Source of the DNA: Rivularia sp. MS3
GTDB taxonomy: Bacteria; Cyanobacteriota; Cyanobacteriia; Cyanobacteriales; Nostocaceae
DNA length: 64,000 nucleotides
Assembly (NCBI GenBank): GCA_019192545.1
Contig: JAHCMI010000033.1
Coordinates: 23,300 to 87,299 of the forward strand
Direction of reading: 5' to 3'
The translations under genes were made by a program, and so were the position numbers. How positions within the stretch are numbered: the stretch's first letter is position 1; each line of letters starts with the position of its first letter. The notes below the pieces were generated by a model, which worked only from the letters and a program-made list of their open reading frames with translations, did no database searches and had not been told where the DNA came from. Shown here piece by piece: positions 3,113 to 64,000 of this stretch.

Positions 3113-3982
3113 TTAAACCTCTTCGTGCAAGATTTGAGTTGAAGTTGTTGAATGAAGATGAATAAATTCGTTGAAGTCAATTTTTTTGAATGGACAAGTA
3201 GAAAAAATTATATTTCTCCTCAAGTTTTTCAGAAATATTCACTTATAACAAAAGCACTACCTATATAAAGTACATATGAACCATAATTATTATTTACTAT
3301 CATGCCTTCACCAGTAATAAATTGACCTGTTAACGGTATTGCTTATAGTAAGCAATAACACTATAGTTATAGGTTTTATTTAGATTTTTTTTAACGACCG
3401 GACAATTTATATTTTGGTTATGCCTAATGTAGTCTTTTTACTTTAGAGCGACATTTATTTTCAAGTCAAAGGGCTACAAATAATACGAAAATATAATGGA
3501 AAAATTATCAGTATGCTACCTGAAGTATTAACAGCTACAGCTACATCCTTTTTTGACAGTTAAATTATGGCTCGATAATTAAATCCCTTATTATACATGG
3601 CTAAGCTTTACTGTAACGAAGACTAACATTAACTTATTTCTTTGCAGAAAGAAATAGTATATATACTTAAAGCAGCTTGACGTTTGTCTGAAAAAATGAT
3701 ATGCATGATTTGCTACAATTAATACTTAAGTGCAAAACAAACTTTTGTATAAAGCAGCTTTTTATACTAAAAGTAACGAGGCGGTTTTATACAAAAGAGT
3801 TATAGTTGAAGCCACGTATTTTTGTCAAAAGCTTACCGATGCCGGTATAACAATACAAATACGTGTTCTCCTGCATCAGGGACAAATAATTGACCAGAGC
3901 TTCTAGTCTGCTTGAAACCCAAGTAAAACAAGTACTGAGGGTGCTTGAGTTAATGGTTAATACTTATAGAAATTGCATCTAC

Positions 3983-5338
3983 ATGAAAACTACACTAAAT
4001 TTGTCAAGGTTTTTTAAAGCCTGTAATCCAAGTAGGACTTTGGTTATAGGCGACGATTCCGATAGAAAGTACTACATAGATTTTTCCGAAGTAAGGGGTT
4101 GCAAAATAGTAGAAGAACTGCAACGAACAATTGTCCGTATTTCTCCCGATGAACCCACTTGTCAATTATTTACAGGTCATATTGGCTGCGGTAAGTCAAC
4201 TGAGCTACAGCGTCTCAAAGCAGAATTAGAGCAATCCGGATTTCATGTAGTTTATTTTGAGTCCAGCCAGGATTTGGACATGGCGGATATAGATGTCAGC
4301 GATATTTTATTGAGTGTAGCCCGCCAAGTTAGTGCCAGTTTAGAAGAAATTAACATTAGGTTAAAGCCTGGTTATTTTAGTAATTTATTTAGAGAAATAG
4401 GGGAATTTCTGCAAACTCCGATAGATATTTCCGCAGAAGCTGAATTTTCTCTAGGGATTGCGAAAATCAGTGCGAAAGCCAAAGATAGTCCGCAGTTGCG
4501 CTCTCAGCTTAGACAATATCTTGAACCTCGTACTAATAGCATTTTGCAAGCGATTAATGAAGAGGTGTTGGACAAAGCAACCAAGCAGCTACAGTTAAGG
4601 GGACAAAAAGGACTGGTTGTAATTATTGACAATTTGGATAGAGTTGATATGCGCCCGATGCCATCAGGGCGATCGCAACCCGAATATTTGTTTATTGATA
4701 GGGGCGAACAGCTGCGTCGGCTTAAATGTCATGTGGTTTATACAATTCCATTAGCATTAATTTTTTCTGGTGAATACGAAACGTTAAAAAATCGTTTGGG
4801 TGGTGGTATTGCGCCTAAAGTGCTGCCGATGGTATTGGTACGTCAAAGGGATGGTGACGACTGCAAACCGGGAATGACTCTTTTACGTCAGTTGGTTTTA
4901 GCCAGAGCATTTCCGGAAGCTTCGCCGGACATTAGATTGAGATTGATTAATGAAATATTCGATAGTTCGGAAACTTTAGACCGTTTGTGTAGGGTTAGTG
5001 GCGGTCATATTCGTAATTTATTGGGATTACTTTACAGCTGCTTGCAACGGCAAGATCCTCCCTTCGAGCGTTCTTGCTTAGAAGCAGTCATCAAAGATTA
5101 TCGCGACGATTTACTTTTAGCGATCGACGACGAAGAATGGCAATTGCTGTATGAAGTTGTCAATCAGCAAACTGTTAAAGGTGAATCTGAATATCAAAGA
5201 TTGCTACGAAGTATGTTTGTTTTTGAATACCGAGATGCTAAGGGACGCTGGTTCGGCATTAGTCCAGCTTTATCGGAAACTGAAAAAGTCCTCAGCTGGG
5301 AAAATTCTGAGTACAAGATTCCAGCAACTTTTTCTTGA
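3983..5338 (+). CDS. P-loop AAA/KAP-like ATPase (likely start at MKTTLNLSRFF; ORF track starts at 3890)
   Basis: Walker A TGHIGCGKSTE, Walker B GLVVIIDNLDR; no nuclease or other recognised effector domain. Confidence 0.8.
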   Translation: MKTTLNLSRFFKACNPSRTLVIGDDSDRKYYIDFSEVRGCKIVEELQRTIVRISPDEPTCQLFTGHIGCGKSTELQRLKAELEQSGFHVVYFESSQDLDMADIDVSDILLSVARQVSASLEEINIRLKPGYFSNLFREIGEFLQTPIDISAEAEFSLGIAKISAKAKDSPQLRSQLRQYLEPRTNSILQAINEEVLDKATKQLQLRGQKGLVVIIDNLDRVDMRPMPSGRSQPEYLFIDRGEQLRRLKCHVVYTIPLALIFSGEYETLKNRLGGGIAPKVLPMVLVRQRDGDDCKPGMTLLRQLVLARAFPEASPDIRLRLINEIFDSSETLDRLCRVSGGHIRNLLGLLYSCLQRQDPPFERSCLEAVIKDYRDDLLLAIDDEEWQLLYEVVNQQTVKGESEYQRLLRSMFVFEYRDAKGRWFGISPALSETEKVLSWENSEYKIPATFS

Positions 5339-5949
5339 TAGTAATATTGCCGATTCAATATTGCTTATTAAAATTAAAGACTAATTATTAGCGTAAAAGC
5401 TTGCATTTAACCTTTTTCGTTAATCCAAATATTGATAAGGAGAAGCTTTTATACGCTTGACAGTAGAATTTTTAAGTAATTTAGCCCGAAAAATCATCAA
5501 ACAAAAAGAAATTAGATATCCGATGGGGCATTTATTGTTTGAAATTTTTAATTAGAAATATTAATTATTCTAATTAGTTAAATTTGGCTAATAAAAATAT
5601 TTTTCTGCTCAACTGAACTGTACTTTTCCGAGTGAAGACAAGCAAACTTAATTTTCAAAAGCATCATCAGATTATCTATGGAGTTTTTTAGATCAAAGCA
5701 AGCTGCATAATTTAATCGCTGCTGTGAATCTAAAATCCGAAGTTTTAAATCTCAAATCTAATTTACCCACAATTTCTAGAATAAACGGGGCTTTAAACTT
5801 TAGTCTCAGGAAAAGGGCAGGCTTCTACATTGTTAAATATCGGCAAAAAACTAATTCATTAGTTTTAATTTTGACGATATTTGAGAAGCTTTTGAATAAA
5901 CCCTTGGGTTCGATCTCGTGACACAACGTCAAATCAAAATTTTGCAGCT

Positions 5950-8900
5950 ATGAGCGAAAATACAAATCTCACGGATATCGCTATTTCTAATCAGCATTCT
6001 CTAAAAAGATTAATTCGGGCAATTGCACTATCAAGAGGTCAATTTTCTCTGATTCTTGTGCGGTGTAATTATACGGAGTTGTGCAAGCAAGTATTAGACA
6101 ATATCCGCTCGCAAACCAAAGATGTAAATTTGCGAGAAGTATTTCTATCTCCATCAACCACTGCTTTACACAGCACTATAGTCTCAGAGCTATTTTTGGA
6201 TATACCAGCTGTAAAGACAGATTGTTTACCAACAGCAGTAATGGTATTTGGCTTGGAGTCAGTAACCAACTTAGAAGATTTACTTACCGGTATTAATCAA
6301 GCACGAGATATATATGCCGATACTTTTTCCTTTCCCATAGTTTTATGGCTTAAAGATGAAGTTGGAACATCACTATCACGATTTGCCCCAGATTTCAAAA
6401 GTTGGGCGGCAACGACGATTAAATTTGAAATGGCTGCTCCGGATTTAGTCACTCTGATCCAACAGCAAACACAGGCTTTGTTTGACAAGGTTATAGATGC
6501 AGGAGCGCAAAAGTTTTTATCTAATGCTGCTTTACTTTTAGATCCCAAATCACAGCAGCGTCGAGAAGTTGAATCTGCTCGTAACGATTTGCTGCGGCTT
6601 TATGACATCAAGCTCGAACCCCAATTAGAAGCAAGTTTAGAATTTGTTCTCGGACGCGATAATTATGTCAACGACAACATTGACGAAGCTCTATGTCATT
6701 ACCAGCGCAGTCTAGAACTCTGGGAAGAAGAAATTAACAGTAATTCTTTATCTCCTTTGATTGCCAATTGCAAACAGGAAACAAACAAAGGTGATTTCTT
6801 TTCTCCCCATGCGCCACTCTTTTCTCTCATACGTCAAGCTGTTGTCATGTTCCACCTGGGACTTTGTTACCGACGCTTGGCAGACTTACAGCCTGCTGCC
6901 AATACTAGCTTTTGGCAAAATGCTTTGAATTGGTTTAAGCAATGCTTAGATATATTTGAAAAAGCTAGCAGAAAAGATTTAAGTGCTAAATTTATTTTTC
7001 CAGCCTGTGAAGTCCTAGAACGTTTGCAGCAATGGGATGATTTATCAGAGTTAGCTGCTTATTCTTTGCAGTTGCATTCCTCTGAAGGTAATAAAAATTT
7101 AGTTGCTCAAGATTACGGATTTCTATGTGTTGTAGCTACTTCTAAATCTGATTGGGTACAAGCCCATGAATTAGCTAATACAGCTCTTTCTATTGCAGAG
7201 GAAGTTCCAGAAGTGTCTCGCCAACAAGAAAGCTGGTATTTATTATTACTGGGTCGTACTTTACGGAATTTGGGTGAATGGGACGAAGCTGTCAATACTT
7301 TAGAATGGGCTAAAGTTGTTTGTGAAGCTCAATACGAGCCATCTTTATATTTAGAAATTGTTGAAGAATTGCGCTCGCTTTATTTCTGCGAACGTCATGA
7401 CTACTTAGAAGCTTTTAAACTTAAACGAGAAAAAATTCAGATTGAACATCAGTATGGATTTCGTGCTTTTATTGGTGCGAGTCAATTGCAGCCACAGCGG
7501 TATAGAATCAATCCAGTTTTACAGCCGCAAAAAATTTCATCTACTCCCGATCGAGTTGCTCAAGAAATTGCGGCTTCAGGAAGACACCAAGATGTGCATA
7601 ACCTGCTGGCAAAAATGACTCGTGCTGACTGTAAACTCACAGTGGTTCACGGACCTTCGGGGGTAGGTAAAAGCTCGATAATTAAAGCAGGGTTGGTTCC
7701 AGCATTAAAACAAAATGCAATTGGAGAGCGCATGGCTTTACCAATTGTTCTATCTGTTTATACTGATTGGATCGCAGCTTTAGGGCGTAGTTTAAATCAG
7801 GTTATTGCCCGTACTTCCATATCATTAGCGATAGACATTACTGTTGAAGTCATTTTAGAAAAACTACGGCTGCTAGCAGACAATAATTACACTGTAATTT
7901 TAATTTTTGACCAGTTAGAAGAGTTTTTCTTTGTCAAACAGGATACGCCTCAAAGAATCGAATTTTACAAATTTTTTAATCAATGTCTGAATATTCCGTT
8001 TGTCAAAATTATTCTTTCATTGCGGGAAGATTATTTACATTACTTGTTAGAATTCGAGCGTTTAAGTTACTTAGAAGAAGAAGAATCTCACGACTTAGGA
8101 GTAATTAATAAAAATATTCTAGATAAGAATATCCGCTACTACTTAGGCAAATTTACTTGCCAAGATGCTAATAGTATTATCCATAGTTTGACAGAACGCT
8201 CTCATTACCAGTTAAGTGATGAATTAATTAATAAATTAGTAGAGGATTTAGCAGGGGTTACTCGCCAAGTGCATCCTATAGAGCTACAAATCGTTGGCGC
8301 TCAATTAGAAGCACAAAATATTACTACATTAGGCGAATATCAACGCAGTGGTGGTTCTGAAAAATTAGTCCAACACTGGTTAGAAAAAGTTATTTACGAT
8401 TGCGGGCAAGAAAACGAACAGCTAAGCTGGAAATTACTATTTGAATTAACTGATGAAAAGGGTACCCGACCTCTTAAAACTAAAGCAGAATTAGTTACGG
8501 CTATTTTTAAAGAACAAGATTCTTATAAAGAAGAAGCAGAAAATTCTCAACCAGATAATTTTTTAATTAATATGAATCAAACTGCTGATTCTGCTTTCTC
8601 TACATTTAACCAATCTCGCACCGGCAGCGACGAAGAAAATAGGGATAACTTTATGCATTCCTACAATGTCAGTACCTTAGAGTTGATTTTAGAAATCCTT
8701 GTAGGAAGCGGTTTGGTATTGCGAGTGCTTCAAGAGTCCGGAGAGCGTTATCAGTTAGTTCACGATTATCTAGTTAAACCCATTCGCGTTCGTAACGACT
8801 ATGGAATTATTGCCGAATTAGAAAAAATCCGCTTTGAAAAAACTAAAGCAGAAGTAGCTCAAAAATTATCCCAACAAAAGCTAAATTCTATACTTCAACG

Positions 8901-57030: not shown

Positions 57031-57318
57031 ATGACAAGCTTTACTCAATTCAAATCTGAACAAGACTTTCTTTCTCCTGTTCGTCAATGGCTGGATTCTC
57101 AAGAAGTTAAAAATGCTAAATTAGCTCACTTACTCTGCAAATCAATTCCCGCGCAATGTCCTTTTGAACGCGATATTGTTGTTTTTGGACGTAAACTATT
57201 TCACATTCCTCCAATGTGCAAATTAAATCCTCTTTACGAACAAGTTGTAAGTTTACGTTTTAAAGCTTTGTGCTATCTTGCTGACGAATGTGGTGAAGAT
57301 ATTACTGCTTATTGCTAA
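57031..57318 (+). CDS. Mo-dependent nitrogenase C-terminal domain-like protein
   Basis: PVRQWLDSQEVKNAKLAHLLCKSIPAQCPFERDIVVFGRKLFHIPPMCKLNPLYEQVVSLRFKAL. Confidence 0.85.
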   Translation: MTSFTQFKSEQDFLSPVRQWLDSQEVKNAKLAHLLCKSIPAQCPFERDIVVFGRKLFHIPPMCKLNPLYEQVVSLRFKALCYLADECGEDITAYC

Positions 57319-58565
57319 GAATTGATTGGTAATTTTACACTTATTATTGTTCCTTCTTCTAAGTTGGATTTAATTATCAATTCACCATTATGAGATTCTA
57401 CTATACGTTTAACTATTGCAAGCCCCAATCCCGTACCAGAGGATTTTGTTGAATAAAAAGGCTTAGTTAATTTCGGTAAAACCTCTGGGGATATGGGTTC
57501 TCCTCCGTTGCAAATGTTAATCGATACTTGTTTTTGTTCTTCAGAATTATCAAGTTCTAACTGAATTTTTACGGTTTCTCCCACGCTTACAGCTTCACAA
57601 GCGTTACGCACAAGATTAATTACAATTTGTTTGAGTTTATCTTTATCCCCCATTACTTTTAACTGAGTTGATGGGGGATAATATTCTATCTGCCGTTGGT
57701 TTGCTGCTGGTATCATTCGCAGCGATTCTAACATTTGAGAAATAAACCAATTAATATCAATTTCTTCTAAATCTAATCTCTGAGGTTTTGCATACAGCAA
57801 AATCTCTTTCAGCAATCTTTCTAATCTGTCTGCTTCTTCTAAAGCTAAAGAGACTCGCATTTGAGAAGCAACTGAATTATCTATTTTTTTAAAATAATTC
57901 AAACCCATTTTCATCGTAGTAAATGGATTGCGAATTTCGTGAATAATCCCGGATGCAAATTCCCCAATTGCAGCCAAACGTTCTTTTTCTACAAGTTTTG
58001 CTTGCGCTACTTTTAGTTCTTCCGTTCTTTTGGCAACTTCAGCTTCTAATATTTCGTTAAATTTGCATTGTTGCTGATAAAGTTGATAATTATCAATTGC
58101 AGTTGCCGCACGCTCGGCAAATAATTCGACAATTGCCACTTCTTCAGAATTATATTTACGGGGCTTTTGGTGAAACGAACAAATTGTCCCGATAACTTCC
58201 CCTTGAGAAGTGCGTAAAGGTACTCCTAAATAAGAACGATATCCTTGTGGTACTGCACCGTATTCTGTACAAGTTTTAGTATCATCAACTGTAAGGCTTT
58301 TTCCAGTTTCTACTACTGTTCCAGTCACAACACCGTGCAAAGAATAAGTTTTGTCATAATCCTCAAGCTCTATACTGCTTGCAAGAATTTTGTCAAAATC
58401 CCCTTGACAAAAGGTAACCACAGACCAATCAATAGTAATTAGCTTGCTGACACTTATAGCAATTTCTTTTAAAAATTTTTTGAGTTCTCCATCTCGGTAA
58501 CTAAGAGATGATAAAACTTTCAAAGTTCGCTGTTTTTGTTGCCAATTCCGAGATTCCAATTGCAT
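57315..58565 (-). CDS. GAF-domain sensor histidine kinase
   Basis: GAF-like region; ASGIIHEIRNPFTTMKMGL (H box), KQIVINLVRNACEAV (N box), SSGTGLGLAIVKRIVESHNG. Confidence 0.95.
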   Translation of the reverse strand: MQLESRNWQQKQRTLKVLSSLSYRDGELKKFLKEIAISVSKLITIDWSVVTFCQGDFDKILASSIELEDYDKTYSLHGVVTGTVVETGKSLTVDDTKTCTEYGAVPQGYRSYLGVPLRTSQGEVIGTICSFHQKPRKYNSEEVAIVELFAERAATAIDNYQLYQQQCKFNEILEAEVAKRTEELKVAQAKLVEKERLAAIGEFASGIIHEIRNPFTTMKMGLNYFKKIDNSVASQMRVSLALEEADRLERLLKEILLYAKPQRLDLEEIDINWFISQMLESLRMIPAANQRQIEYYPPSTQLKVMGDKDKLKQIVINLVRNACEAVSVGETVKIQLELDNSEEQKQVSINICNGGEPISPEVLPKLTKPFYSTKSSGTGLGLAIVKRIVESHNGELIIKSNLEEGTIISVKLPINS

Positions 58566-58808: not shown

Positions 58809-59486
58809 ATGACAGCGCACATTTTATTGGTAGAAGACGAAGTTAAACTCGCTAAATTTGTTGAATTAGAATTAGGTTTTGAAGGCTATCAAGTCAGCGT
58901 TGCTAATGACGGATTAACTGGGTTAACTATGGCACGCGAGTCAAGTCCCGATTTAATTCTTCTAGATTGGATGCTGCCGGGAATGACTGGTTTAGAGATT
59001 TGCCGACGACTGCGAAGCACGGGGGATAAGGTACCGATTATTTTGATGACTGCCAAAGACGAAGTTAGCGATCGCGTTGCTGGTTTGGATGCAGGTGCGG
59101 ATGATTATGTAGTAAAACCGTTCAGTGTAGAAGAGTTGTTAGCAAGAGTAAGGGCACGCATTCGCAGGACTTCCGAGGAAAGCAGCGAAGATAATTTAGA
59201 ATTTGAAGATTTAAAATTAAACCGCAGCACTAGGGAAGTTTACCGAAACGGACGATTGATTGAATTGACAGCCAAAGAATTTGATTTACTTGAATATTTA
59301 CTTTCCCATCCCCGACAGGTGATAACACGCGACAGGATTTTAGAAGAAGTCTGGGGTTACGACTTTATGGGAGACTCCAACATTATTGAAGTTTACGTGC
59401 GTTATCTACGGTTGAAATTGGAAGCCAATAAAGAAAAGCGATTGATTCAAACAGTTAGGGGTGTGGGATATGTGTTGCGGGAGTAA
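58809..59486 (+). CDS. OmpR/PhoB-family response regulator
   Basis: [47 protein letters not shown]-terminal winged helix. Confidence 0.96.
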
Positions 59487-59654: not shown

Positions 59655-59760
59655 TATGTATTTAACCTTTGACCTTTAACATCTAACCTTTAACCTTTCC
59701 TATGTATTTAACCTTTGACCTTTAACATCTAACCTTTAACCTCTAACCTTTAACCTTAAA
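59655..59760. repeat. Heptamer STRR array containing a 46-bp tandem duplication
   Basis: tatgtatttaacctttgacctttaacatctaacctttaacc present at 59655 and 59701. Confidence 0.9.
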
Positions 59761-59761
59761 A

Positions 59762-61179
59762 CTACCTTGTTCTCAACAATTGTACAAAAGTATCGCTAAC
59801 GGTATGGTCTTTAGTATCGGCTGCGTAATCTATCAACTTTTCTCGTAAATCTTTAGCTTCATTCAAAGGTAACAAAGTTGCCAAGAGAAAATAAACTCCG
59901 CGAAAACGCGGGTCGCCGATGTTATCAATTAATCTAGATTCTGCTTCATTTCCATCACCGAGGAAGGTTTGAACGATAAAGTAATCCATAATTTTATCGT
60001 GACGAAAATACCATTCTTGCTGAGGTTCACCATCGGAATTTTGCCACTGACGGCTGACAACCATTTTGTATTTTTCGTCTTCCATACAGAGTAATTCGTT
60101 GTAAAAATCATCATCTGGTAAAGCACTTTCATCATTAACCCGCATTTGATAAACTGCTTCGGAAAACTGTTTGAGAGGAAATTTCCTAAAGCGTATGCTG
60201 CACTACTACGAATATCCGAGTCAACATTTTTATTTTTGAGAATGTCAGCCATATCTTTAACGTAGGGTTTGGCAGCATTCCCCATCTTTCCCAAAGCAGA
60301 TGCTGCACTACTACGAACATTTACATTAGCAGTTGTGTCTTTAAGAATATCAACGATATCTTTAACGTAGGGCTTGGCAGCATTCCCCATATTTCCCAAA
60401 GCAGATGCTGCACTACTGCGAACATTCGAGTCAACCGATTTATCTTTGAGAATATCGACAATATCTTTAATGTAAGGTTTAGCAGCATCTCCCAGATTTC
60501 CCAAAACATATACTGCACTACCACGAAGATTTGTGTCAACAGATTTATCTTTGATTAAGTTGAGGATATCTTTAACGTAGGGTTTGGTAGCACCTCCCAA
60601 ATTTATTAAAACAGATGCTGCACTAACACGAACATCTGAGTCAACCGATTCATCTTTAAGAATATCAGCGATATCTTTGATGTAGGGTTTAGCAGCATCT
60701 CCCATATTCCTTAAAGCGTATGCTGCTTTAAGACGAATATCTGAGTCAACCGATTTATCTTTAAGAATATCAACGATATCTTTGATGTAGGGTTTAGCAG
60801 CATCCCCTATATTACCCAAAGTTTTTGCTGCATCAATAAAACGAATATCTGAGTCAACAGACTCATCTTTGAAAAGTTCTTTGAAAGTTTTGGCGGCTTG
60901 TTTGGCAACATCCTCCGGCTTCTTAAGTAAAGGTTTTAAATCTTGAGCTTCGTATCTAGCTAATTGCTTTAAAGCATATTCCTTCACTTCATCATAATCA
61001 TCATCCAAAGCAGCCACGATACCGTTAATCTGCCACTGCTGCGGTTTCGGTTTATTTACGTTTCGAGCATTTACCCAAGAAAAGGAGAGAAAAAATACAA
61101 GTAGAAATGTAATTGGAAAAAGTAGAAAAGGGTGTTTAATTAAGCGCTGATATTTAACCATAATTGGGGAATAATACAA
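59762..61179 (-). pseudogene. Chimeric/frame-disrupted HEAT-repeat protein fused out of frame to a NACHT-protein-like C-terminus
   Basis: Signal/TM, ~7 x 35-aa HEAT-like units, reading frame change near 60160-60195, then KFPLKQFSEAVYQMRVNDESALPDDDFYNELLC...EWYFRHDKIMDYFIVQTFLG in another frame. Confidence 0.75.
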
Positions 61180-61323: not shown

Positions 61324-61710
61324 CCTCTGCGTACTCTGCGCCTCTGCGGTTTTTTTTATCGGTAATTTTCTTTAATAAACGAATTAATTAGCTTTATTTT
61401 CAGCATCTAATTAAACATAATACTCTTCCATTCGAGCATAATCTTCACGACGTTCTTGTTCGATATATTTCATCATCGTGCATTACTATCTTTTATACTT
61501 GTTTTGAATAATTTTTAATCGGGTTTATGTTTGTATTTGATATTTTTATTATAAAAATATGGTAGAAAAAACTCTGCGCTCCTCCGCGCTTACCTCCGCG
61601 TTTCTTTGCATTAAAAATATATAGTTCCCATAGAAAAGGATTTGATATTAACAGTTTTTACAGAAGATGGTTTAGGTAAATAACCGCAGAGACGCAGAGT
61701 AATCAGAGGT
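61324..61710. repeat. Three dispersed CTCTGCG/CCTCCGCG repeat clusters
   Basis: 61325 ctctgcgtactctgcgcctctgcgg; 61572 ctctgcgctcctccgcgcttacctccgcg; 61684 inverted ccgcagagacgcagag. Confidence 0.7.
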
Positions 61711-61855: not shown

Positions 61856-64000
61856 TTAAACATTCATTTGCTGCTTTTGGTAAAGGGAATAATACAACCC
61901 TTTGTGCTGCAATAATTCATCGTGGGTTCCTCTTTCGACGATGATTCCTTTTTCCATTACTAATATCATGTCGGCTCTTTTTAATGGTGCGAAACGGTGT
62001 GCGATTAAAAATACTGTTTTATCTTGGGTGGTGCTTTGCAAGTTTTGCAATACTTGCTGTTCTGTTTCGCTGTCTAGGGCACTGGTTGCTTCGTCTAATA
62101 CTAAGATTGGTGCTTGCAAAAGAAACAACCTTGCTAAAGCAACCCTTTGTCTTTGCCCTCCGGATAATGCTGTACCTCTTTCGCCGACGTTGCTTTCGTA
62201 CCCTTTGGGTAGTTCGCTGATGAAGTCGTGAGCAACTGCCATTCTGGCAGCTTGTACTACTTGCTCGGCAGAAATTTCGGGGTTTCCTAATGTAATGTTT
62301 TCTAGAATGCTGCCGTTGAACAAAAAGTCTTCTTGCAAAACTACGCCTATTTGCTGTCGTAAGGAAGCTAAGTCAACGCTTTTTACGTCGAATCCATCAA
62401 TTAAAATCCTTCCGGATTCGATTAGATAAAGTCTTTGCAAAAGTTTGGAAAGCGTACTTTTACCGGAACCGCTGCGCCCTACTATACCAATAAATTGACC
62501 GGGTTCTACTTTAAAGGAAATTCCTTTAAGTACTGGTTCTGTGTTCTCTTTGTAACGAAAGAATACTTGATCGAATGCAACTTCTCCTTGGAGAGGTGGT
62601 AACACTAAGCCGCTTCCTGGCTCTGCTTCGGGGGAAACGTTGAGAATGTCGCCGATTCTATCTACAGATAACAGTACTTGCTGTAAATTTTGCCACAGTT
62701 GAACTAATCTTAATAGTGGGCCGGTAACTCTCCCCGAAAGCATTTGAAAAGCTACTAATTGCCCGACTGTAAAGTTATTTTCAATAACTAGTTTGGCTCC
62801 AAACCAAAGTATCAATAGGCTGGATAGTTTGGTGAGAAAGTCGCCGATGTTACTGCTGATATTGGAAGTTGTGGAAGCTTTGAAACCAGTACGGACAAAG
62901 CGAGCAAATAATCCTTCCCATCTATCTCTGGTTGCAGGTTCGGCTGCATGGGCTTTTACGGAATGAATTCCCGTTACCGTTTCTACAAGAAATGATTGAC
63001 TGTCGGCGCTTCTATTAAAGGTTTCGTTGAGCCATTTACGTAGAATTGGCGTTGCTGTTAAGGTTAATCCGGCAAATAATGGCAGCACTGCTAAGGCTAC
63101 GAAGGTAAGGGTGCTGCTGTAATAAAACATTAGTAGCAGATAAACTACAGCAAATATGCTGTCAAGAACTACAGTTAATGCCGTACCTGTAAGGAACTGA
63201 CGAATTTGTTCTAATTCTTGCACCCTTGCTACTGTGTCTCCTACCCGTCGCGACTCGAAATAAGATAGCGGTAAACGCATCAAATGACGGAATAGTTGAG
63301 CCGACAAACTTAAATCCAAACGGCGGGCTGTATGGGTGAAAATAAACAAACGTAAAATCCCCAACACCGACTCAAACACCGCTACCAAAAGCATGGCGAT
63401 CGCCATTACGTCGAGAGTCGCCAAACTCTCTTGCACCATGACTTTGTCGATGATGACTTGAGTAATCAACGGTGTTGTTAATCCCAGCAGTTGTAAGGTG
63501 AAGGATGCTAGCAGTACTTCGGTAAGCAAACCTTTGTACCGCCAAACAGCGGGTAAAAACCAACTAAGATTAAACTTTTCTTGCTTTTGTGTTTGCTCTA
63601 CTTGCCATAGATAGCCATTCCAAAATGTTTCAACTGCTTCGCGGGATACCGTTTCACAATTTAAATCTGGATTTTGCGGGTTAGCAATAATTAAGTTATT
63701 ACCTTTACGCTCATAAGCTACCACCCAGCTAGCAGACTCCGACTTTCCCCACAACAATAAAGCCGGAAAAGAAAGTTGTTGAAAATCATCCCAATCGACT
63801 TGCAGCCTCCGCAGCACCAAACCCAGCTTTTCCGCCGCTTCCACAACATCTTTCGGACGTTGCGATCGCACCTGGCGCTGTACCCATTCCAACTTCGCCG
63901 ATATTTCTAAATACTGCGCCACCATTGTCAAGCAAGCAGCCGCACTGTTGGCACCCGAAACGAAGGGATGGGGAGAAGGGGGGGAGGGGGAGATAGGGGG
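61856..64000 (-). CDS. Peptidase-like/ABC exporter (HlyB/type 1 secretion-like); ORF remains open to the right window edge
   Basis: GRSGSGKSTLSKLLQRLY, LSGGQRQRVALARLFLLQAPILVLDEATSALD; in-frame upstream sequence PHPFVSGANSAAACLTMVAQYLEIS. Confidence 0.93.
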   Translation of the reverse strand, partial: PPISPSPPSPHPFVSGANSAAACLTMVAQYLEISAKLEWVQRQVRSQRPKDVVEAAEKLGLVLRRLQVDWDDFQQLSFPALLLWGKSESASWVVAYERKGNNLIIANPQNPDLNCETVSREAVETFWNGYLWQVEQTQKQEKFNLSWFLPAVWRYKGLLTEVLLASFTLQLLGLTTPLITQVIIDKVMVQESLATLDVMAIAMLLVAVFESVLGILRLFIFTHTARRLDLSLSAQLFRHLMRLPLSYFESRRVGDTVARVQELEQIRQFLTGTALTVVLDSIFAVVYLLLMFYYSSTLTFVALAVLPLFAGLTLTATPILRKWLNETFNRSADSQSFLVETVTGIHSVKAHAAEPATRDRWEGLFARFVRTGFKASTTSNISSNIGDFLTKLSSLLILWFGAKLVIENNFTVGQLVAFQMLSGRVTGPLLRLVQLWQNLQQVLLSVDRIGDILNVSPEAEPGSGLVLPPLQGEVAFDQVFFRYKENTEPVLKGISFKVEPGQFIGIVGRSGSGKSTLSKLLQRLYLIESGRILIDGFDVKSVDLASLRQQIGVVLQEDFLFNGSILENITLGNPEISAEQVVQAARMAVAHDFISELPKGYESNVGERGTALSGGQRQRVALARLFLLQAPILVLDEATSALDSETEQQVLQNLQSTTQDKTVFLIAHRFAPLKRADMILVMEKGIIVERGTHDELLQHKGLYYSLYQKQQMNV

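Follow-up and report, generated by a model that had tools for sequence, protein, structure and literature searches.

A HEAT-repeat gene of Rivularia sp. MS3 that appears to have lost its predicted NACHT-like NTPase through a single internal deletion

Introduction

The described proteins closest to the gene studied here come from cyanobacteria and from plasmids of rhizobia. In the cyanobacterial NACHT-HEAT proteins L087 and L093, the NACHT domain stands first, the HEAT repeats stand last and no signal peptide was seen. This order is the reverse of that in the family considered here, in which HEAT repeats precede a membrane segment and a P-loop NTPase. The latter family is found in Nostocales, and a literature search found no papers describing it; one example is the 'unknown protein' BDA76416.1 from plasmid Cal7716_p3 of Calothrix sp. 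PCC 7716. Plasmid proteins of Rhizobium and Mesorhizobium, which are annotated as hypothetical (e.g. QIJ44757.1, 1404 aa), are ~36% identical over the NTPase and the C-terminal module and carry a membrane segment that is similar by eye, but no signal peptide was seen in them and their N-terminal part has no Pfam HEAT match. A distant relative (L136, 3460-7671; ~36% over NTPase and C-terminus, annotated hypothetical) is carried by the conjugative Rhizobium leguminosarum plasmid pRL10, with IS21 and IS110 transposases on either side.

An earlier note on a 64,000-nucleotide stretch of Rivularia sp. MS3 DNA (the window, at its whole length) described a HEAT-repeat gene joined out of frame to a C-terminus like that of NACHT proteins and read it as a scar joining two gene families. 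We compared this locus with 193 genomes of the taxonomic family, which were searched with the C-terminal module. The 416-aa "HEAT protein" and the 127-aa "orphan" are the two ends of one broken gene of predicted STAND type, which corrects a misleading pair of ORFs. Although the MS3 locus is a broken gene of an ordinary kind, it belongs to a family that has no name and has been broken repeatedly in the genus.

Results

The minus-strand ORF of 416 aa was confirmed at 59929..61179 from the ORF list and its translation. Its listed TTG start at 61179 is probably not the true start; it lies upstream of a conserved ATG at 61161, from which the aligned proteins read MVKYQ.. in MS3 and L113 and MDKYR.. 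in L041 and L052. The 5´ end of the gene (60952..61161, minus strand) encodes by homology a signal peptide or membrane segment (PFLLFPITFLLVFFLSFSWVNA) and the conserved QQWQINGIVAALDDDY motif. This part is 76% identical to the N-terminus of a full-length Richelia protein (tblastn, 1.6e-34) and 80% identical at the amino-acid level to the syntenic gene in L113. An array of HEAT repeats with units of ~35 residues occupies 60182..60951 (minus strand), as assigned by unit spacing and by Pfam HEAT_2 (1.6e-19) and HEAT_PBS (2e-19), and its frame contains no stop from 61161 to 60184 (326 codons checked). The QxWQINGIVAAL N-terminus, the signal peptide and the HEAT array of the family are all present in the MS3 copy.

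After the array, the HEAT frame reads on as GCT TTA GGA AAT TTC CTC TCA into an aberrant tail of ~84 residues, which on translation shows no homology (59929..60180, minus strand). The homologous sequence continues instead in another frame as the C-terminal module (59762..60181, minus strand; 139 aa and a stop at 59762), which was recognized by homology as FPLKQFS..EWYFRHDKIMDYF..HTVSDTFVQLLRTR and reads F60181 PLKQFSEAVYQMRVND..FVQLLRTR. The family signature of this module, FPLKxFS..WYFRHDKIM..HTVSDTFVQLLR, is present; identity reaches 94% to Calothrix parasitica NIES-267 (G083) and 85% to G130. A small C-terminal protein could possibly start at its own ATG at 60145. The 139 residues have no Pfam family match and no PDB sequence match. 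A P-loop was found nowhere in the MS3 locus, and the linker, the membrane segment and the P-loop NTPase (GDSGLGKS, IDGLNE) are missing here as well as in the rest of the genome, so the MS3 copy is a remnant and not a functional family member. The HEAT frame followed by a different frame without a P-loop is thus as the earlier note described it, on the evidence of the Pfam matches, the frame check and the 94% identity of the module. Directly downstream of the gene, the window carries a AGGTTAAAGGTTAGAGGTTAAAGG-type repeat (59705-59770), of which ~40 similar places occur in the genome.

The C-terminal module was matched in 96 of the 193 genomes at up to 94% identity, mostly in long open frames; to judge from these identities, the similarity is far above chance. 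The relatives' frames are ordered as signal peptide (..LPWVNAK), HEAT array, linker (LELEEVVIVLDNVYYAG..RFLTYFLSGGTDEVKTLL), membrane segment (ILIHAAFWLLLIFAYPKSPQIQAIFFWNPWVRRIFGMGYVGFLLAW), P-loop NTPase (GDSGLGKSMFLR, DICIDGLNEVTADTR) and FPLK..LLRTR. Full-length relatives of 979-1115 aa occur in G130, G003, G104 and others, and the full protein of Richelia UBA3308 has 979 residues. An NTPase match lies directly upstream on the same strand in 107 of 118 C-terminal modules; the module therefore normally accompanies an NTPase, and the MS3 form is an exception. The other 11 modules include both MS3 copies, short fragments and contig ends. Among the exceptions that were read, only contig C33 of G051 has a long continuous frame (L111, 3835-5928; 698 codons), from which the P-loop and Walker B part is gone in frame while the linker and the membrane segment are kept. 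An intact gene with only HEAT repeats and the C-terminus, the single-frame homologue that the earlier note had named as the observation against its reading, was not found in any relative among the 118 places. A simple frameshift of such a gene was rejected on this count (0/118). Long variants with a second NTPase-like region after the C-terminal module occur in L049 (1269-7154, minus strand; 1962 codons) and L051 (429-3311); this region (GLRKSGKTS) gives weak nSTAND6 and ATPase_2 matches.

The MS3 gene is flanked by an ABC transporter gene (61856..63931, minus strand; 93-96% identical beside the gene in L040, L103 and L113), a response regulator gene (58809..59486, plus strand; 98.7% identical in L040 and L103) and a histidine kinase gene (57315..58565, minus strand; 87-90% identical in L040 and L103). 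The order ABC transporter, family gene, response regulator, histidine kinase is common to MS3, NIES-267 (L040) and G104; in G148, the ABC transporter side is kept up to the contig end. In the stretches fetched from G130, G140, G045 and G118, the regulator and kinase pair is kept and no family gene lies beside it. The NIES-267 copy is one open frame of 880 codons that contains HEAT repeats, linker, membrane segment, NTPase and C-terminus; its N-terminal part is lost, and the frame begins within the end of an antitoxin-like gene that lies upstream. The G104 copy keeps the N-terminus, HEAT repeats and linker and has lost the membrane segment, NTPase and C-terminus. The MS3 copy keeps the N-terminus, HEAT repeats and C-terminus and has lost the linker, membrane segment and NTPase. 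Each species has lost different parts, so three species carry three different lesions of the same gene; in the sequences compared, two other species of the genus have breaks in the syntenic gene that are unlike the one in MS3. Full-length Nostocales members likewise resemble MS3 in N-terminus, HEAT array and C-terminal module, and differ in possessing the three parts that it lacks and in having an unbroken frame. A remnant of the upstream antitoxin gene, which we take to be HicB-like, lies at 61450-61476 of the window (minus strand), with 9 matching residues; 102 residues of that gene align at 89% in L113, and its tail alone is left in L103.

This comparison also decides the origin of the two halves. 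Recombination between a HEAT gene and the C-terminus of a NACHT gene would account for modules that lie in different frames and are dissimilar to each other, but single-frame relatives hold both modules with an NTPase between them at this very locus. The syntenic single-frame orthologue led us to reject a joining of two families, which is hardly conceivable: the two halves are the ends of a single gene that has lost its middle. The assignment of the C-terminal half to the region after the ATPase in cyanobacterial HEAT proteins held, as relatives at the same locus retain the ATPase, and the ATPase-bearing gene that had been sought at this position exists in NIES-267.

The junction was placed by alignment to L040 at 60179..60181 (minus strand), within the interval of 60160-60195 predicted earlier, with GGAAATTT on the left (HEAT, ..ALGN) and TTTCC on the right (FPLK..); the sequence spanning it is GGAAATTTCCTC. 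Homology changes frame there (..TTA GGA AAT TTC CTC..), and the homologous protein resumes one base over as TTT CCT CTC AAA (FPLK..). In L040, the aligned HEAT array ends at 4520 and the C-terminal module begins at 5922; the stretch that is absent from MS3 is 4521-5921, ~1.4 kb (467 codons), an estimate that leaves aside differences in the number of HEAT units. By this alignment, ~1.4 kb is lost in one deletion inside one gene. Microhomology at the junction may amount to 1-5 bp: TTT is common to both sides, and AATTT would be if the deleted sequence was, as it is in some relatives, GGAAATTTGGG in the HEAT unit and GAATTTCC on the right. A deletion between long direct repeats was rejected, as the similarity at the junction is limited to a few bases. 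Within the family sample, only MS3 has the exact junction sequence; one match with three mismatches, in a genome without the C-terminal module, was taken as chance.

A sequencing or assembly artefact, in which the true gene is intact or an in-frame fusion and a misjoin or a one-base indel hides this, would fit a single-base frame offset at a T run in a repeat-rich gene of a draft assembly of 174 contigs. However, assemblers need more than 1-5 bp of overlap to make a misjoin, no unplaced NTPase fragment exists in the assembly (whose completeness is rated at 100%), and a paralogue is independently deleted. We consider an artefact very improbable.

Selection on the C-terminal module was estimated between MS3 and NIES-267 (dN 0.021, dS 0.36, dN/dS ~0.06). 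With G130 as the outgroup, 8 synonymous and 2 replacement changes fall on both the MS3 and the NIES-267 branch, with no sign of relaxed constraint on the MS3 branch. Hence either the deletion is young compared with the split from NIES-267, or a product is still in use. Such use might be that of a functional NTPase-less variant, in which the HEAT protein, the small C-terminal protein or both act, e.g. by regulating NTPase-bearing relatives or serving as their decoy. The two open frames and the constrained module are consistent with this idea, as are the deletion of the NTPase in several copies and the continuous NTPase-less protein of 698 aa in G051. Yet the halves are out of frame in MS3, its genome has no NTPase-bearing family member to regulate, the exact HEAT plus C-terminus architecture occurs in no other sampled genome, and the G051 protein with its linker and membrane segment is a different form. 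A functional variant is improbable on this evidence.

The class of the missing NTPase was examined in the relatives. The Walker A motif G-x-SGLGK is invariant in the family. The rule for NACHT-type Walker B motifs is DGxDE; the family has IDG(L)NE, in which Asn replaces the second Asp, as it does in the IDGxNE motif of L087 and L093. Pfam NACHT and AAA_22 give weak matches in 19 of 19 members (best NACHT 6.4e-5); the scores reported fall below the respective cut-offs, except that the long variant L049 passes that of AAA_22. The five relatives with a reported score for Pfam NACHT (PF05729) reached 14.9-18.2 bits and stayed below the gathering cut-off of 26.7, which L087 passes at 3.4e-9. In hhalign, the NTPase profile of the family aligns to that of L087 and L093, two proteins 84% identical over the aligned part, with a probability of 97.5% (E 5.7e-12, 131 columns). 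L087 and L093 also have an FRH/FRN..EYY motif after the NTPase, comparable to FRHDKIMDYF in MS3. Assignment of the lost domain as a NACHT-like STAND NTPase appears justified; the earlier proposal of a NACHT-type ATPase thus stands as NACHT-like by hhalign and falls short of the Pfam NACHT cut-off.

A PDB profile search with the NTPase and C-terminus returned nothing credible. The AlphaFold model of the same part has low confidence (pLDDT 60); in it, the C-terminal module forms two helices, a two-strand hairpin and further helices, and it is predicted to be winged-helix-like, as expected after a STAND NTPase. Fold-search matches to ORC, Avs4 and NRC2 (AAA+/STAND) had TM-scores near 0.2 and were set aside as unusable for class assignment. 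PADLOC gave no NACHT or Avs model for three full-length relatives or for pieces of the window, and its matches fall mainly on HEAT repeats.

Discussion

The MS3 locus is very probably a recent pseudogene that arose when a single deletion removed the interior of the gene. Its ancestor would have encoded a signal peptide and HEAT array, then a linker and a membrane segment, and after these a NACHT-like P-loop NTPase of STAND type and a winged-helix-like C-terminal module. Comparison with relatives shows that the deletion took out the whole stretch between the HEAT array and the first codon of the C-terminal module and set the two remaining parts off by one base in frame; the break was probably closed by end joining at a few bases common to both sides. 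Of the two halves, at most the HEAT half would still yield a protein, which would be exported and would end in a nonsense tail. The absence of stops in both halves speaks against a pseudogene, as does the lack of relaxed constraint on the C-terminal module, and so does the offset of a single base, from which an in-frame fusion is possible.

To judge by its architecture, the intact protein perhaps acts, with somewhat better than even chances, as a STAND sensor anchored in the membrane, in which the HEAT repeats sense and the NACHT-like ATPase and winged helix form the switch. The signal peptide would place the HEAT repeats outside. If the membrane segment is a two-helix hairpin, the NTPase would also lie outside, an implausible location; with a single crossing, it would lie in the cytosol. 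The MS3 genome no longer has an NTPase switch that would link sensing by the HEAT repeats to an output, because the second copy has lost its NTPase as well.

This second copy, on contig C148 (L009, ~5909-6859), keeps HEAT units, half of the linker and the C-terminus; it has an in-frame stop in the HEAT part and no N-terminus. Its orthologue in G104 is an intact frame of 1108 codons with the same downstream neighbours. Compared with that intact gene, the ends of the C148 deletion differ from those of the window deletion; judged by these ends, the C148 copy lost its NTPase independently. Two C-terminal remnants thus remain in the MS3 assembly, with no family NTPase elsewhere in it; the only other NTPase match is distant (31% identity, contig C119).

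The NTPase has been lost in both MS3 copies, in G051 (in one frame) and in G150, and in three of these NTPase-less copies the right breakpoint falls on the FPLK codon or no more than 9 bases from it. That NTPase loss is a repeated route to HEAT/C-terminal proteins with a regulatory role, and not plain decay, seems most unlikely to us. One shared cause of the breaks at FPLK was considered: right breakpoints are the same or near (that of C148 lies ~9 nt from that of the window copy), and left ends and filler differ. A search by the C-terminal module itself favours finding breakpoints just upstream of the module.

In this family, which is widespread in Nostocales and has its C-terminal module in half of the sampled genomes, HEAT repeats are coupled to a NACHT-like ATPase. 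The loss of the family by independent deletions can be used to study the turnover of NLR-like genes in multicellular bacteria. In G150 (L108, ~5737-5770), the right breakpoint of the NTPase deletion is the same base as in the window copy, and the junction holds ~25 bp of filler (CCAACTCTTGGAGACGCTACGCGAA) that resembles a dispersed cyanobacterial repeat. In G102 (L110, ~3280-4700), an insertion sequence, presumably ISL3-like, splits the family gene ~15 nt downstream of the FPLK codon; it has inverted ends of the GGCTCTCCCAGA type, and the 8 bp AAAAAATT are duplicated.
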